From: Caulobacter vibrioides
Lineage (GTDB): Bacteria > Pseudomonadota > Alphaproteobacteria > Caulobacterales > Caulobacteraceae
Direction of reading: 5' to 3'
Length of the DNA stretch: 64,000 nucleotides
Assembly: GCF_002858865.1 (NCBI RefSeq)
Contig: NZ_PJRR01000012.1
Location: 248,001 to 312,000 of the forward strand
Under the pieces are notes generated by a model that made no database searches, was not told the origin of the DNA, and saw only the letters and a list, made by a program, of their open reading frames with translations. Position 1 is the first letter of the stretch. Each line of letters opens with the position of its first letter. A program made the translations under genes and the position numbers. Shown here piece after piece: positions 5,820-64,000 of this stretch.

Positions 5820-5872
5820 TAGAGCCCTCTTCGATCCGATAGCCGTTTCACACCCGTCGGAAAATGCTCTAG
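5820..5872. repeat. GCTCTAG-type intergenic palindrome (degenerate copy)
   Basis: TAGAGC at the left edge and CGTCGGAAAATGCTCTAG at the right edge match the element at 42591-42638; the left arm is degraded. It fills the galE upstream region, whose start lies 28 bases later. Confidence 0.55.
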
Positions 5873-19893: not shown

Positions 19894-20036
19894 GGCGGAC
19901 TCCTCTGGTGTGTTTCAGAAAGGGAGCCCAGGCGCGCGGCTTATGATGTCCACGCTCCCCGATGGTTCCCCATCACTAGCGCCAGTCACGCGAACGCGGC
20001 GGAAAATACGAGGGCGGGCGGGGGAGTCAATCAACG

Positions 20037-32508: not shown

Positions 32509-32537
32509 AAGGCCCGGTGGAAACACCGGGCCTTTTC
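32509..32537 (+). terminator. intrinsic terminator of the beta-oxidation operon
   Basis: An 11-bp stem, AAGGCCCGGTG with CACCGGGCCTT, encloses a GAAA loop and runs into TTTT. It is 25 bases after the fadJ stop. Confidence 0.9.
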
Positions 32538-56687: not shown

Positions 56688-57911
<1,224 letters not shown>

Positions 57912-57933: not shown

Positions 57934-57968
57934 ACGGGCTCCGATCCTAGCGGGTCGGAGCCCGTTTT
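57934..57968 (+). terminator. intrinsic terminator of metK
   Basis: ACGGGCTCCGA (57934-57944) pairs with TCGGAGCCCGT (57955-57965), an 11-bp perfect stem, followed by TTTT. It lies 22 bases after the metK stop and before trmB. Confidence 0.9.
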
Positions 57969-58000
57969 CATTTCGGCTTCAACCCTCTAAGACGCGCGCC

Positions 58001-58681
58001 ATGACCACCCCGCAACAACCTCACGGACCACTGCGCTCGTTCGGCCGGCTGAAATCGCGCCCGGTGAAGCCGCGCCAGCAGGCCCTGCTCGATACGCTGC
58101 TGCCGGAAATCGCCGTTCCGACCGGTCCGTTTCAGCCACTGGACCTGATGCCCGAGGCCAAGGCCGTGTGGCTGGAGATCGGCTTTGGCGGCGGCGAGCA
58201 CATGGCGAGCCAGGCCGGCCGCAATCCCGAGACCCTGGTGATCGGCGCCGAGCCCTTCGTGAACGGGGTGGCCTCCGCCGTGCGTCATGTCGAGGAGCAG
58301 GCGCTCAAGAACGTCCGCATCCACGAGGGCGACGCCCGCGACGTGGTCGACTGGCTGCCGGACGCCTGCCTGGATCGCGTGTTCATCATGTTCCCCGACC
58401 CCTGGCACAAGGCGCGGCACAACAAGCGCCGCCTGATCCAGCCGGAGTTCGTGGCCAAGCTGGCTCGCGTCATGAAGCCGGGCGCGGCCCTGCGCTTCGC
58501 CACGGATTGGGCGGATTACGCGGAGTGGACGACCGAGCGGGTTCTGGCCGATCCGAGCTTCCGCTTCGCCGATGAGGCGGCGGACCGCAACGCGATCCCG
58601 GCCGACCACGTGACTACGCGCTACGAGGAAAAGAAGCTGGGCGACTGCGCGCCGGTGTTTCTGGACTTCACCAGGGGCTGA
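58001..58681 (+). CDS. trmB: tRNA (guanine-N7)-methyltransferase
   Basis: The 226-residue SAM methyltransferase modifies G46 of tRNA. WLEIGFGGGEHM (SAM motif I, near residue 55), GAEPFVNG, and the diagnostic IMFPDPWHKARHNKRRL near residue 128 are TrmB signatures. ATG 58001 is used; the longer open frame overlaps metK. It uses the SAM made by its neighbour, though the terminator before it suggests a separate transcript. Confidence 0.93.
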   Translation: MTTPQQPHGPLRSFGRLKSRPVKPRQQALLDTLLPEIAVPTGPFQPLDLMPEAKAVWLEIGFGGGEHMASQAGRNPETLVIGAEPFVNGVASAVRHVEEQALKNVRIHEGDARDVVDWLPDACLDRVFIMFPDPWHKARHNKRRLIQPEFVAKLARVMKPGAALRFATDWADYAEWTTERVLADPSFRFADEAADRNAIPADHVTTRYEEKKLGDCAPVFLDFTRG

Positions 58682-58782
58682 TCCCGCTACCCCCGACCCT
58701 AAGATCCCTTCTCCGGGAGGCCAGGTGGCCCTAGGCTCCGCGCCGAGCGCTCGACTTCACGCGCGATTTCAGGGGGACGACC

Positions 58783-59169
58783 ATGATCTGGGTCGGAGAG
58801 CATTACGCCGGCATACTCGTAGTCAGCGGTCTTCTGACCCTGACCATGCTTCAGTTTGCGCTGGCGCCCAGCCGGTCTCAGCATTCGACCTTCGGCGAAG
58901 CGCTGGAGGGTCCGCTGACGAACGTCATTGTTCGCGGCTGGGGGCTGCTGATCGCCCTGATCGGGGGAGGTCTCATCTGGGCGGCCTTCCATCCGGAAAC
59001 CCGGACACTGGCGGTCGCCTTCGCCGTCATCAGCAAGGCCTTCTTCATCGGATCGCTGATCGCCCAGGGGCGTCGCTACCTGAAGGGCTTCGCACGCATC
59101 GCCATCTTGATCGACGCGGTCGTCATCGCGCTGCTGGTGACCGGCCTCTGGGCCGGCCACCAGAGCTGA
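58783..59169 (+). CDS. small integral membrane protein
   Basis: The 128-residue protein has four predicted hydrophobic segments (about 9-28, 50-70, 76-95 and 105-124), so it is an inner-membrane protein. I recognise no function; short four-helix proteins of this kind are common in alphaproteobacteria. GGGGGACGACC precedes the ATG. It is convergent with ppa, leaving only six bases between stops. Confidence 0.72.
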   Translation: MIWVGEHYAGILVVSGLLTLTMLQFALAPSRSQHSTFGEALEGPLTNVIVRGWGLLIALIGGGLIWAAFHPETRTLAVAFAVISKAFFIGSLIAQGRRYLKGFARIAILIDAVVIALLVTGLWAGHQS

Positions 59170-59175
59170 TCGAAC

Positions 59176-59709
59176 TCAGTAGCTCTCGTTGTAACGCTTA
59201 ATCGCCGTGCGGATGATCTCGGCGGTTTCGTCGGGATCGGCCCAGCCGCTGATCTTCGTCGACTTGCCCTTTTCCAGATCCTTGTAGTGCTGGAAGAAGT
59301 GGGCGATCTGCTCGGTCAGGATGGTGGGCAGGTCGCGCCAGCTGGTCACGCCCGTATAGAACGGGTGTAGCTTGTCGACCGGCACGGCCAGGATCTTCTC
59401 GTCCGAGCCGGCTTCGTCGACCATCATCAGGGTGCCGATCGGGCGGCAGCGGATGATCGCGCCGGGCACCACCGGGGTCGGACCCACCACCATGATGTCG
59501 GCGGGGTCGCCGTCGTCGGCCAGGGTGTGCGGGATGAAACCGTAGTTGGCCGGATAGAACATCGCCGTGTGCAGGAAACGGTCGACCATCAGGGCGCCGC
59601 TTTCCTTGTCGATCTCGTACTTCACCGGCTCGCCGCCCTGCGGGATCTCGATGATGGCGTTCAGGTCGTACGGCGGGTTTACGCCGACGGCGATCTTGGA
59701 CAGGTCCAT
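59176..59709 (-). CDS. ppa: inorganic pyrophosphatase
   Basis: The 177-residue cytosolic family I pyrophosphatase hydrolyses PPi, driving biosynthetic reactions. ANYGFIPHTLADDGDPADIMV carries the catalytic Asp cluster, and KYEIDKESG and the C-terminal LEKGKSTKISGWAD are family motifs. Length matches E. coli Ppa (176). It is divergent from the rimP operon across 258 bases. Confidence 0.95.
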   Translation of the reverse strand: MDLSKIAVGVNPPYDLNAIIEIPQGGEPVKYEIDKESGALMVDRFLHTAMFYPANYGFIPHTLADDGDPADIMVVGPTPVVPGAIIRCRPIGTLMMVDEAGSDEKILAVPVDKLHPFYTGVTSWRDLPTILTEQIAHFFQHYKDLEKGKSTKISGWADPDETAEIIRTAIKRYNESY

Positions 59710-59886
59710 TTTGACTCTTTATCAGATGCGGCCCTTGGGGAGCGGCCTGCGCGGCTGGGCTTATAGGCCCAAAATGCTGCGGCGCGGAAGACGACTCCGG
59801 AGATTTCCCCGCCATGAGTCGACAACGACCGCCAATTCGCCTACAAAGCGTTCCACATCGTCCGTTAGCGCTAGATGGCGCTTTCG

Positions 59887-59918
59887 AGCGGCGGCCCGAA
59901 AGGCTGCCGCTTTTTGTT
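59887..59918 (+). terminator. attenuator-like hairpin in the rimP leader
   Basis: AGCGGCGGCC (59887-59896) pairs with GGCTGCCGCT (59902-59911) over 10 bp, loop CGAAA, then TTTTTG. It looks like an intrinsic terminator 50 bases before the rimP start with no complete gene upstream on this strand. Leader attenuation is a reasonable reading; rimP leader RNAs have been described in proteobacteria. A 60-codon frame (59814) spans it but looks spurious. Confidence 0.7.
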
Positions 59919-59967
59919 TGGCCGAACGGTCTCAGCGCCGCCGGCCCAGAAGTTGAGTTGAGAGACC

Positions 59968-60543
59968 GTGCGCGGGAAGACGCAGGAAGACCGTGACCTG
60001 ATCGAGATGCTCGATCCCGTGGCCGAGAGCCTCGGCTACGAGATTGTTCGCCTGCGCCTGATGGGCGGGACCGAGCAGCGCCGCCTGCAGATCATGGCCG
60101 AACACCCGCTGCTGGAAGACGGCTCGGGCGGCGACATGAATGTCGAGGACTGCGCCAAGCTGTCTCGCGCTGTTTCCGAAGTGCTCGACGCGGCCGATCC
60201 GATCGCCGGCGAGTACACCCTGGAAGTGTCCAGCCCCGGCATCGACCGTCCGCTGACCCGCCTGAAGGATTTCGACGACTATGCCGGCCTGGAGGCCCGC
60301 ATTGAACTCGATCGCGTGGCCGAGGGCCGCAAGCGCTTCAAGGGCGAGCTCGCCGGCGTCGAGGACGACCAGGTGGGCCTGAACATCGAGGGCGAGGACG
60401 ACGTCACCGTCTACTTCCCCTTCGCGTGGGTCATCGACGCCAAGCTCGTCATGACCGACGCCCTGATGGAGCGGGGGGCCAAGCAACGGGCCGCCCGCCT
60501 CGAATCCGACAACGAAGACCTGTCCGAAAGTGAAGAGGACTGA
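59968..60543 (+). CDS. rimP: ribosome maturation factor RimP
   Basis: The 191-residue protein aids 30S subunit assembly. The N-terminal domain ([17 protein letters not shown]) and [10 protein letters not shown] near residue 88 are the family signatures; an acidic tail ends in SESEED. GTG 59968 is the start; upstream is the attenuator-like hairpin. It precedes nusA by two bases, the standard rimP-nusA-infB order. Confidence 0.94.
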
Positions 60544-60545
60544 CC

Positions 60546-62192
60546 ATGGCCATCGGCATCGCCGCCAACCGGCTTGAACTCCTGCAGATCGCCGACGCGG
60601 TCGCCCGTGAAAAGGGCATCGAGAAGGAAGTCGTCATCGAGGCCATCGAGGACGCCCTGCAGAAAGCCGCCCGCGCCCGCTACGGCGCCGAGCACGACAT
60701 CCGCGTCAAGATCGACCCCAAGACGGGCGAGACGACCCAGAAGCGCGTGATCGAGGTCGTGTCCGACGACGCTGAACTGGAAGGCGAGATCGGCAAGATG
60801 CCCTTCTCGATCGCCAAGCGCACCTGGCGCGACGCCGAGATCGGCAAGGTCTACGAAGAAGTCCTGCCGCCGTTCGAGATCGGTCGCGTCCAGACCCAGA
60901 TGGCCCGTCAGGTCGTCATGCATAAGGTCCGCGAGGCCGAGCGCGAGCGTCAGTACGACGAGTACAAGGATCGCGTCGGCGAGATCGTCAACGGCAGCGT
61001 CAAGCGCGTCGAGTACGGCAACGTGATCGTGGATCTGGGCCGTGGCGAAGGCATCATGCGCCGCGACCAGTCGATCCCGCGCGAGAACTTCAATGTCGGC
61101 GATCGCATCCGCGCCTACATCTACGACGTCCGTCGCGAGACCAAGGGCCCGCAGATCATGCTGAGCCGCGCGCACGGCGGCTTCATGGCCAAGCTGTTCG
61201 CCCAGGAAGTGCCGGAAGTCTATGACGGCGTCATCGAGATCCGCGCCGTCGCGCGTGACCCCGGTTCGCGCGCCAAGATGGCCGTCATCTCGAACGACGG
61301 CTCGATCGACCCGGTCGGCGCCTGCGTCGGTATGCGTGGTTCGCGCGTGCAGGCGGTCGTCGCCGAGCTGCAAGGCGAGAAGATCGACATCATCCAGTGG
61401 TCGGAAGACGAAGCCACCTTCATCGTCAACGCCCTGGCCCCGGCTGAAGTCTCCAAGGTCGTCATGGACGAGGAAGACGAGCGCGTCGAAGTGGTGGTGC
61501 CGGACGAACAGCTTTCGCTGGCCATCGGCCGCCGCGGCCAGAACGTCCGTCTGGCCTCGCAGCTGACCGGCTGGCAGATCGACATCATGACCGAAAGCCA
61601 GGAGAGCGAGCGCCGTCAGCGCGAGTTCGCTGAGCGCACGGCCCTGTTCCAGGAAGCCCTGGACGTCGACGAGGTCATCGCCCAGCTGCTGGTCACCGAA
61701 GGCTTCGCCGCGGTGGAAGACGTCGCCTATGTCGAGCCGCATGAAATCGCCTCGATCGAGGGCTTCGACGAAGAAACCGCCGAGGAGCTGCAAACCCGCG
61801 CTCGCGAGTTCCTCGAAAAGGAAGCCGCCGAGCTGGACGCCAAGCGCAAGGCCCTGGGCGTCGAAGACGAGCTGCTGACCATCGAGGGCGTGACCCTGGC
61901 CATGGCCGTGGCCCTGGGCGAAGGCGACGTGAAGTCGATCGAAGACCTCGCCGGTCTGGTGCCTGACGACATGCGCGGCTGGTTCGAGAACAAGGGCGGT
62001 GAGCGCGTGCGCGAGCCGGGCATCCTGGAAAGCTTCAACCTGTCGCCCGAGGACGCCGAGGCGCTGATCATGCGCGCCCGTATCGCCATGGGCTGGGTCG
62101 AGGCGCCGCCGGAGCCCGAGCCGGAGCCGGAGTTCGAGGAAGAGTCCTCGGCCGAAGGCGACGTCGTCGCTGAAGCTGAAGAAGAGGCCTAA
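60546..62192 (+). CDS. nusA: transcription termination/antitermination protein NusA
   Basis: The 548-residue protein has an N-terminal RNA polymerase-binding domain (1-125), an S1 domain ([21 protein letters not shown], about 135-200), KH1/KH2 ([31 protein letters not shown], about 230-350), two C-terminal helix-hairpin-helix repeats (about 365-500), and an acidic Glu-rich end. Length is typical. It controls pausing, termination and antitermination. Confidence 0.96.
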
Positions 62193-62270: not shown

Positions 62271-62921
62271 ATGACCGAAACCGCTGCGCCCAAGACCCAC
62301 GCCGAAGCCAATCGCCTGCGCAAGGACATCGTCCTGGGCGAAGCGACCGACGAGGCGCGCCTGATCCGCTTCGTGGCGGGTCCGGACGGGACGGTGGTTC
62401 CGGATCTGGCGCGAAAGCTGCCGGGACGCGGGATCTGGGTGGGAGCGGATCGGGACTCGATCACGACCGCCGCCAAGAAGGGCCTCTTCTCACGGGCCGC
62501 CAAGACCAAGCTGACCGCACCGGCGGACCTCGCCGACCAGGTCGAGGCGCTGCTGGCCCGCCGGGTCCTTGAGGGCCTGGGTCTTGCGCGCAAGGCCGGG
62601 AGCATTATTTCGGGCTTCGAGAAGGTGGTCGCCGCCCTGGGGACGGGCAAGGTGGCCTGGCTGATCGAGGCCTCGGACGGCGCCGAAGACGGTCGCCGAA
62701 AGGTTCTTTCCGCTGCGCGCAGGGCCGCCAACACGCCCCGCCTGCTGGGCGCCTTCAATTCCGACGAATTGGGTTTGGCCTTGGGCGGGGAGAATGTGAT
62801 ACACACAGCGCTTCTCGCAGGGCGCGGGATCGATCGCTGGGCACTGGATGTCGAGCGTCTGTCCGGTTTCCGCCCGCTTCTGCCTCCCGAATGGTCGGCG
62901 AACGGACGCGAGGACGACTAG
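62271..62921 (+). CDS. YlxR/DUF448 plus L7Ae-like RNA-binding protein
   Basis: The 216-residue protein has an N-terminal YlxR (DUF448) domain (about 15-80) with LIRFVAGPDG and GRGIWVGAD, and a C-terminal L7Ae-like domain (about 95-190; GLGLARKAGSIISGFEKV). YlxR normally sits between nusA and infB, as here; fused forms are common in alphaproteobacteria. It probably binds RNA or RNase P, by family. A 278-base gap separates it from infB. Confidence 0.88.
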   Translation: MTETAAPKTHAEANRLRKDIVLGEATDEARLIRFVAGPDGTVVPDLARKLPGRGIWVGADRDSITTAAKKGLFSRAAKTKLTAPADLADQVEALLARRVLEGLGLARKAGSIISGFEKVVAALGTGKVAWLIEASDGAEDGRRKVLSAARRAANTPRLLGAFNSDELGLALGGENVIHTALLAGRGIDRWALDVERLSGFRPLLPPEWSANGREDD

Positions 62922-62999
62922 GGATTTTCGCCTTTGGCGGTTCCTGGGCACAGACGGCGGGCCTGTCCGCCCGGTCGGTTCGCCGGCCTTGGCAGGCGC

Positions 63000-63048
63000 T
63001 AGAGCTTTTCCCTCTCACCGGACCGTCCGGTGGGATGGGAAAGCTCTA
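63000..63048. repeat. GCTCTAG-type palindrome inside the nusA-infB operon
   Basis: TAGAGCTTTTCCC…CACCGGAC and its mirror GTCCGGTGGGATGGGAAAGCTCTA form a 49-base palindrome, directly followed by GAATC (63049-63053), a GANTC site. The remaining infB leader (63055-63199) holds a weak CCGGG/CCCGG hairpin and no gene. Confidence 0.7.
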
Positions 63049-63199
63049 GAATCTTTGAGTGAGCCCAGGTGTTCGGCCGGGCTCGTGAGCGAAGGGTCGG
63101 GGAAACGGCTTCCTTATGGAGGTACGTCCGGGCCCCTTTCTCACATGGAACGAACGGTTTTTTAGCCGGGTACCGCCCGGCGGAAGTACAAGCGAGCGC

Positions 63200-64000
63200 A
63201 TGAGCGACGAGAACGAAAACGGCCGACCCGGCGGACGCACCCCGATGACCCTGAAGCCCCGCCAGGGCTCAGTGAGCGCTGGGGTCGTGAAGCAGAGCTT
63301 CAGCCACGGCCGGACCAAGACGGTGGTGGTGGAAACCAAGCGGACGCGGACCCACGCGCCCGCGTCCGGCAATCTTGCCGCGCCGTCCTCGGCCGAGCGT
63401 CGCCATGGCGAAGCCCCTGCGCCGCGTCCGGCGCCGCCGCAAGGCGGCGGTGGCGGTTCGGCCGGCGGTCTGTCGCAGGAAGAACTGCGCGCCCGTCAGC
63501 GCGTCGTCGACGCCGCGCGTGAAGCTCAAGCCCGCCAGGTGGCCGAACAGGCCGCCGCCGAGGCCCGTGCTCGCGCCGCTCAGGAAGCTGCTCAGCGTGA
63601 AGCCGCGGCCAAGGCCGCAGCCGAACGCGCCGCCGCCGCGCCGCCGCCACCCGTCGCGCAAGCGCCGGCAGCGCCGGCTCCGGCAGCGCCCGTGACGCCG
63701 CCGCCGGCCGCTCCGCAGGCGCCGCGTCCCGTCGCTCAGGCCCCGGTCGCGCCGTCTGCGCCGCGCCAGGACGCCCCCCGTCAGGACACGCGCGCCGCGG
63801 CCCCCGGCCAGACTCGCACCTACGAGCCGAGCCGCGACCGCCGCGACGATCGTCCGAGCACGACGACCTATCGCCCGGCCCCGCAAGGCGACCGTCCGTT
63901 CAATCAACGCGCCCCGCGTCCCGACGCCAACGCCAACTTCGGTCAACGGGCTCCCCGTCCGGAAGGCGATCGTCCGCGCGGTCCGCGTCCCGACGGCGAC
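63200..64000 (+). CDS. infB: translation initiation factor IF-2 (N-terminal part, truncated by window)
   Basis: The visible 267 residues start MSDENENGRPGG, then the IF2-associated N-terminal motif (PMTLKPRQGSVSAGVVKQSFSHGRTKTVVVE), followed by long Ala/Pro/Arg-rich low-complexity repeats (helix AQEAAQREAAAKAAAERAAA, repeats RPQG/RPDGD). The GTPase core is outside the window. The position after nusA-ylxR is conserved. ATG 63200 was chosen by the IF2_N opening. Confidence 0.92.
   Translation, partial: MSDENENGRPGGRTPMTLKPRQGSVSAGVVKQSFSHGRTKTVVVETKRTRTHAPASGNLAAPSSAERRHGEAPAPRPAPPQGGGGGSAGGLSQEELRARQRVVDAAREAQARQVAEQAAAEARARAAQEAAQREAAAKAAAERAAAAPPPPVAQAPAAPAPAAPVTPPPAAPQAPRPVAQAPVAPSAPRQDAPRQDTRAAAPGQTRTYEPSRDRRDDRPSTTTYRPAPQGDRPFNQRAPRPDANANFGQRAPRPEGDRPRGPRPDGD

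Follow-up and report, generated by a model that had tools for sequence, protein, structure and literature searches.

A conserved leader RNA with a candidate transcription attenuator upstream of rimP-nusA-infB in Caulobacteraceae

The window, by which the whole stretch of 64,000 nucleotides analysed here is meant, carries near its right end the genes rimP and nusA, a gene for a YlxR-type RNA-binding protein and the beginning of infB, all on the plus strand. The ppa gene lies divergently upstream of rimP, with metK and trmB upstream of the ppa-rimP region. Pfam IF2_assoc was found in 63200-63997 and the part of infB inside the window gave no NCBIfam match; the identity of this gene is supported by its position after nusA and ylxR. 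The genes and the features of the rimP leader are as follows.

59176-59709, minus strand: ppa, leftward, opposite to rimP
59819-59847, plus strand: predicted sigma-70 type promoter, 9 of 12 consensus matches
59855-59921, plus strand: leader RNA element (covariance model R1), 67 nt, predicted 5' end A59855
59858-59864, plus strand: 5' strand of the P0 helix, UCGUCCG, from the fold of the shortened leader
59867-59882, plus strand: P1 hairpin, AGCGCU (59867-59872), loop AGAU, GGCGCU (59877-59882)
59885-59891, plus strand: switch strand CGAGCGG, the 3' strand of P0 and, from A59887, also the foot of the terminator 5' arm
59887-59911, plus strand: P2 terminator hairpin, 10 bp with one G-U pair, loop CGAAA
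59911-59919, plus strand: U-tract TTTTTGTTT, whose first T closes the P2 stem
59968-60543, plus strand: rimP, ribosome maturation factor (NCBIfam NF000932, 254 bits; Pfam RimP_N), predicted GTG start
60546-62192, plus strand: nusA (TIGR01953, 423 bits)
62271-62921, plus strand: YlxR-type RNA-binding protein gene (NF006622, 261 bits; Pfam YlxR)
63200-64000, plus strand: 5' part of infB, running off the window

A non-AUG start of rimP seems to be favoured, the RimP matches in 90 loci of the family beginning with TTG in 31, GTG in 30 and ATG in 19, and with none of the usual start codons in 10. Between the YlxR gene and infB lies a near-perfect palindrome of 51 nt (62999-63049, CTAGAGCTTTTCCC..GGGAAAGCTCTAG), and the region 62990-63060 folds at -40.7 kcal/mol (z -6.1). 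Since spans of the form TAGAGC..GCTCTA recur at 5820, 18203 and 42535, with three more in a 400-kb sample, some of them not true palindromes, it may belong to a dispersed repeat. A ZMP/ZTP riboswitch was found on the minus strand at 19919-19999 (61.4 bits).

The first-pass annotation had claimed a hairpin with a 10-bp stem and the loop CGAAA before rimP, with no gene preceding it on the same strand. The hairpin, P2, is present at 59887-59911, where A59887-C59896 pairs with G59902-T59911 around the loop at 59897-59901; the GTG start of rimP at 59968 follows 48 nt after the U-tract. The second statement was borne out as well, the nearest plus-strand gene upstream ending at 59169 and ppa running the opposite way. 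By a loose terminator pattern P2 is unremarkable, because the region 58000-61500 holds one such site against 1.9 in shuffles. The fold of 59880-59925 reaches -22 kcal/mol, a strong hairpin (z -2.0, 5 of 200 shuffles as good). With a strict criterion (stem of 9 bp or more, 6 or more G-C pairs, 6 T in 9), three sites including P2 were found in the window, against none in 40 dinucleotide shuffles of the window. The other two strict hairpins lie at 32511-32532 and at 57934-57965, the latter directly after metK, which ends at 57911, and within the long ORF listed for trmB; it probably precedes the true trmB start. Beyond these chance tests it was the conservation of the leader that was decisive in taking the P2 hairpin as real.

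P2 is part of a larger conserved leader element that the first-pass annotation had missed, along with the predicted promoter, the P1 hairpin and the candidate antiterminator. In 29 loci of the genus, among them that of the window, mean pairwise identity is 0.95 for the 67-nt leader; it is 0.38 for the 78 nt preceding the promoter, 0.56 for the spacer ahead of the gene and 0.89 for the initial 60 nt of rimP. This contradicts the absence of conservation that the first-pass annotation had named as refuting. The predicted promoter consists of a -35 box TCGACA (59819-59824), a spacer of 17 nt and a -10 box TACAAA (59842-59847). At this position 60 of 89 family loci score at least 8 of 12, while at six shifted control positions 0, 0, 1, 1, 0 and 0 of 88-89 loci do so (one locus of the 90, L061, has no anchor and was left out). 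No promoter upstream of the rimP hairpin was found under a stricter promoter rule. The -10 box ends 4-10 nt before the predicted start, at 6 or 7 nt in 69 of 89 loci, and transcription is predicted to start near A59855; the 5' end ACAUCG is near-invariant, being found in 57 of 66 distinct leaders. Because of the conserved promoter-like site just upstream, transcripts should start before the hairpin, and the alternative that all starts lie downstream of it appears contradicted. The distance from the end of the tract to the start of the RimP match was 14-69 nt in all 90 loci and only 14-25 nt in 49 of them, so that scant room is left for another promoter after the tract.

The family (f1 in our numbering) and the order were taken to be Caulobacteraceae and Caulobacterales from the closest named RimP relatives, which are from Caulobacter, with Phenylobacterium and Brevundimonas further off. 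A RimP match was obtained in 194 of 199 family genomes. Upstream regions were taken for 90 of the 194, namely those of the 30 best matches and 60 more chosen from the rest of the list so as to span the genera. All 90 (19 genera) carry the leader and fit one hairpin-plus-tract expression, and by eye the same conserved block stands upstream of the hairpin in each; in the alignment they collapse to 66 distinct leaders. In the window's own genome R1 gives a single strong match, the leader itself (84.1 bits, E 1.8e-20), the next reaching 27.2 bits. It also matches 79 of 80 named RimP loci (Caulobacter, Phenylobacterium, Brevundimonas and others), the one miss, L283, having 2 nt before the match; since their species overlap with the family set, these loci label that set and are no independent test of it. 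Among 100 genomes of the order, all 21 of the family match with an E of 5.7e-11 or lower, and of the remaining 79 genomes 18 have a match below 1e-6, all in two families (f174 and f175). All 12 of these matches that were inspected precede rimP. Of 25 order matches outside the family inspected in total, some of them weaker, 18 precede rimP and represent diverged copies in two sister families; those at L175, L176 and L185-L189 show no rimP and were dropped, and none of the five of the 25 that come from families f2 and f176 precedes rimP. In one f2 genome (L190, minus strand) the R1 match does not mark the rimP leader but a second, terminator-like hairpin, which stands some 160 nt before the RimP match, upstream of a TATATA box and a short leader terminator. 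The rimP leader of this genome is that short terminator, with no room for P1 after the -10-like box, and therefore the element is established for only part of the order. In 385 genomes of the class, the four best matches were in the four family genomes drawn, and the 26 matches beyond them that were inspected, outside the order (L102-L127), showed no RimP match below E 0.2 and were taken as noise.

The P1 hairpin occupies columns 16-21 with 26-30 of the family alignment. In these columns 98.8% of the cells are paired, with double changes in four of the five pairs: 16 double-change cells were counted, where shuffles gave 2.4 and slid controls no more than 2, and the covariation score was reached by none of 500 shuffles. 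The pair types vary by genus, pair 18-28 for example being C-G in two genera (g18 and g21) and U-A in another (g10). RNAalifold on the 18 distinct sister-family leaders alone found the terminator and not P1, the MAFFT alignment having the P1 arms out of register; in single folds a P1-like hairpin is seen in most of these 18 leaders, L182 and L184 differing at full length. Three other roles for P1 were considered and either rejected or found unsupported. Pairing of its 3' arm with the terminator (CGCU with AGCG) gave covariation no better than shuffles, 155-378 of 500 reaching each measure; a kissing contact of its loop, GGAU or GAU in many genera, with the 5' AUC disagrees with loops GAAA, GCAA, UUCC and CCU that by eye occur with ACAUCG unchanged; and binding of CsrA at GGA does not suit the window, where the loop reads AGAU.

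All 66 distinct family leaders have an identical lower P2 stem, GCGG with CCGC, and 63 of them have C-G as the fifth pair. The upper stem varies, with double changes, and a version slid by -1 covaries more (0.093 against 0.072). Such invariance of sequence at the terminator foot calls for a second constraint. Each leader was folded only as far as the terminator 5' arm, to mimic the RNA at the moment when this arm emerges. In 80 of the 84 distinct leaders (66 from the family, 18 from the sister families), the 5' segment then paired with three or more bases of the arm foot, taken as AGCGG plus the two bases that follow, in a helix enclosing P1. The search expression had shortened two of the four exceptions, L069 and L086, which pair once the missing 5' bases are restored; the other two, L078 and L084, adopt a different fold without this arm-foot pairing. 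In the window UCGU (59858-59861) pairs with GCGG (59888-59891) and CG (59863-59864) with CG (59885-59886), A59887 being unpaired. Sister families make the same P0 helix with other letters, UCGCUGA:UCAGCGG in L167 and GUUCGA:UCGAGC in L177. Shuffling of the 5' segment lowered the stability from -15.04 to -10.98 kcal/mol and the arm pairing from 3.87 to 2.55 nt (76 distinct rows). Compared with 5'-shuffled controls, the natural leader fell in the best tenth in 20 of 31 genera for stability and in 15 of 31 for arm pairing, although the genera are related and binomial values for these ranks are a guide only. A 5' segment with its own linker folded at -8.86 kcal/mol, compared with -6.64 across genera; with one row per genus (29, identical rows merged), the share of permutations as good was 0.0001 on average and 0.0025 at most. 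In fixed columns, P0 has 87.6% of its cells paired, above 500 of 500 shuffles, and its covariation score of 0.073 was reached by 4 of 500.

Other measures were less favourable to P0. Slid controls covary as much or more (-1, 0.103; +1, 0.075; +3, 0.077), and the number of pair types in fixed columns was reached by 429 of 500 shuffles. When 60 nt of upstream DNA were used instead of the predicted 5' end, arm pairing was 5.45 against 5.63 in dinucleotide shuffles (87 loci). The shortened leader of the window alone gave z -1.7, 9 of 200 shuffles being as good. With the terminator arm masked, own combinations folded at -11.83 and crossed ones at -10.01 kcal/mol, compared with -16.36 and -14.14 unmasked, so that 1.82 of the 2.22 kcal/mol advantage was kept. 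Because most of the coevolution thus survives masking of the arm, the strongest evidence for P0 concerns the helix adjoining P1; the candidate reach of P0 into the terminator arm rests on the near-invariant complementarity of the 5' end ACAUCG to GCGG. P0 is accordingly put forward as a candidate antiterminator with comparative support, the coevolution being clearest beside P1. At equilibrium the terminator conformer has -30.5 kcal/mol against -23.8 (74 leaders), and in the window -32.0 against -23.9. With the terminator favoured by about 7 kcal/mol, readthrough would need kinetics or a factor that holds P0-P1. A class-wide antiterminator upstream of GUGGGCC terminators was also considered and rejected, arm pairing there being 5.06 against 4.76 in shuffles (31 loci, 2 of them at 0.05 or below).

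The promoter-like site, the leader, P1 and the terminator, together with their conservation, are established at the level of sequence; that the transcript terminates here in the cell, and the signal that governs this, we only infer. Attenuation of the operon, which the first-pass annotation had raised, gains good support from the predicted promoter conserved just upstream and the little room for a promoter after the tract. On balance we think it likely, if far from certain, that 59855-59921 acts as a transcription attenuator of rimP-nusA-infB, a lineage-specific variant of the rimP-leader in which P0-P1 and P2 are the two states of a switch. The terminator P2 would set how much RNA polymerase enters rimP-nusA-ylxR-infB. 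Transcription would start near A59855, and in the first 40 nt or so P0 and the enclosed P1 would immediately form a single long hairpin, which would hold the foot bases of the terminator 5' arm (in the window the GCGG of AGCGG). The emerging terminator 3' arm, GCCGCU, would compete for these bases. Should the 3' arm win, P2 would form and transcription would end at the U-tract, 48 nt short of rimP; should P0-P1 persist for long enough, the polymerase would read on into the operon. As the likeliest regulator we name NusA, tentatively and at somewhat less than even chances; plentiful NusA would raise termination. This choice follows the B. subtilis precedent (PMC12288461) and the proposal of Naville and Gautheret (PMC2965389). 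Alternatives are a ribosomal protein or some other operon product. More NusA would mean faster escape from P0 and less operon RNA. This would fit the anatomy of the leader, given that NusA helps terminator hairpins to form, as stated in passages of PMC8060035.

A rather doubtful but possible explanation is that NusA or another factor tunes the intrinsic terminator directly without any antiterminator, P1 serving for protein binding or protection of the 5' end and P0 being an extension of P1. B. subtilis offers a precedent, NusA being autoregulated there by NusA-stimulated termination in the 5' leader according to passages of PMC12288461, and Naville and Gautheret saw no antiterminator in the general rimP-leader (PMC2965389). 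Direct tuning would also agree with the location of most of the coevolution in the linker, with slid P0 controls that are no worse for covariation, with the 60-nt test, which gave no clear excess of arm pairing here or in 31 other alphaproteobacterial leaders, and with the f2 leader that has no room for P1. Against it stand the complementarity of a near-invariant ACAUCG to an invariant GCGG and the 15 of 31 genera in which the natural leader falls, for arm pairing, in the top tenth of the 5'-shuffled controls. Moreover, the hairpin of the window is strong, unlike those of NusA-dependent terminators, which passages of PMC8745188 describe as having weak hairpins and/or interrupted tracts, though the tract here is interrupted. 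An interrupted U-tract, defined by one expression, was found in all 66 family leaders, in 12 of 18 sister-family leaders and in 8 of 23 other terminators of the own genome, and all 23 of these sampled terminators have some non-T within the first 9 bases of the tract; since the interruption is thus seen at other terminators too, it was left as an unsupported mark of NusA dependence.

The remaining explanations are less probable. The leader could be mainly a short stable RNA of about 65 nt acting in trans, the rimP operon being read by leakage, and its own promoter-like site, conserved 5' end and strong terminator, as well as a conservation exceeding that of the rimP start, would suit such an RNA. 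We nevertheless regard this as improbable, because the single strong R1 match in the own genome lies before rimP, as do the 12 of 12 order matches below 1e-6 outside the family that were inspected, and the tract ends just 14-25 nt before the RimP match in 49 of 90 loci. The names rimP, nusA and infB are absent from the main text of the Caulobacter Hfq paper (PMC11005374), which says little because the sRNAs are listed there by number. Attenuation by a leader peptide, in which a small ORF couples translation to termination, is very improbable: an ATG lies within P1 at 59875 in the window and 45 of 89 leaders contain one, against 44 of 89 that have none (GTG and TTG uncounted) and a P1 that changes by paired substitutions. 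Equally slight are the chances that P2 is the ordinary terminator of an upstream gene. Over a distance of up to 800 nt upstream, trmB was found on the same strand in 10 of 90 loci, whereas ppa is divergent upstream in 37, the window included, 43 matched none of the four genes tried, and the promoter-like site stands just before the leader in 60 of 89.

NusA and IF2 are essential in most bacteria studied, and to our knowledge control of their supply is known in only few. If the proposed switch is correct, it supplies an antiterminator for a leader class described as having none in its general form, and it makes NusA control of the nusA operon directly testable outside Firmicutes and enterics. 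As a 67-nt switch with one strong match in its own genome, conserved in the tractable Caulobacter, it could be probed for NusA control by point mutants. More generally, it is conceivable, and we offer it as a tentative proposal, that rimP-nusA-infB in Caulobacteraceae and in two or more sister families is under a compact switch. The transcript's first ten bases would keep hold of the terminator foot, and a product of the operon itself or a signal linked to translation would decide between early stop and readthrough.

The element is best compared with the rimP-leader, which passages of PMC2965389 describe as a terminator hairpin and U-tract 4-130 nt before rimP of rimP-nusA-infB, with a G-rich 5' and a C-rich 3' arm. 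The same passages report no antiterminator in the general form, an antiterminator at a second, upstream terminator in several Gammaproteobacteria, a proposal by Naville and Gautheret of NusA feedback on this leader, and, as told there, repression of the rimP-nusA-infB operon by NusA expression. The Caulobacter leader resembles it in the position of the U-tract, 48 nt before rimP in the window and 14-69 nt in 90 of 90 family loci. It differs in that the motif GGGc..gCCC is missing from the stem of the window (GGCC..GGCU), just 10 of the 66 distinct family leaders and 2 of the 18 sister-family leaders having its strict form, and in that the general form has no larger element or antiterminator, whereas here a covarying P1 and a candidate P0 were found. 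A sample of 43 rimP upstream regions from other alphaproteobacteria was made up of the 28 best class matches and 15 of those listed next, and so favours nearer relatives. In 35 of the 43 a terminator lies within 220 nt, and 31 of these 35 show GGG[CT]..[GA]CCC; GGGC..GCCC terminators before rimP are common among the loci L191-L204 and L129-L156. One leader, L199, begins with ACATCGCTGG and is itself matched by R1 at 23.6 bits; it is an apparent intermediate between the rimP-leader and the Caulobacterales element. As other alphaproteobacteria mostly carry the published rimP-leader, the Caulobacterales leader is most simply seen as a derived, elaborated one, and the rimP-leader would thus have a lineage form with more structure than its terminator.

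A comparison with the rimP leader family of Rfam had also been suggested. RF01770, the leader of the same operon, gave no match in 59650-60050 at E up to 10 and none at E up to 1 in 20 other rimP-leader loci, nor did it exceed its gathering cut-off of 47 bits in the own genome or in any of 58 alphaproteobacterial genomes; weaker matches, their places unchecked, occurred in 9 of the 58. In 14 control genomes it exceeded the cut-off in one, E. coli and L. lactis being the two that responded. RF01770 thus seems to miss alphaproteobacterial rimP leaders, and no Rfam family matched the Caulobacterales element here. In the literature, no description of the element in Caulobacterales was found among the matches listed and in the passages found by term; those of PMC12288461, PMC8060035, PMC8745188, PMC4117421, PMC11005374, PMC4287350, PMC2704228 and PMC4137082 contain no description of it, and a term look-up in PMC2864571 gave no relevant passage.

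The proposed control also resembles that of the B. subtilis nusA operon, to which termination in the leader controls entry. The original paper on this autoregulation is reportedly that of Mondal in 2016, and we know of no antiterminator in the B. subtilis leader. The difference is that an antiterminator is proposed here and that the NusA dependence of the present leader is a candidate only. Attenuators of amino-acid and ribosomal-protein operons work by a terminator and an antiterminator, the early hairpin and the late terminator being mutually exclusive. Unlike those, the Caulobacter leader has no conserved leader peptide (44 of 89 without ATG) and no known ligand or protein site; what it would share with them, if our proposal is right, is the exclusion of the late terminator by the early hairpin.
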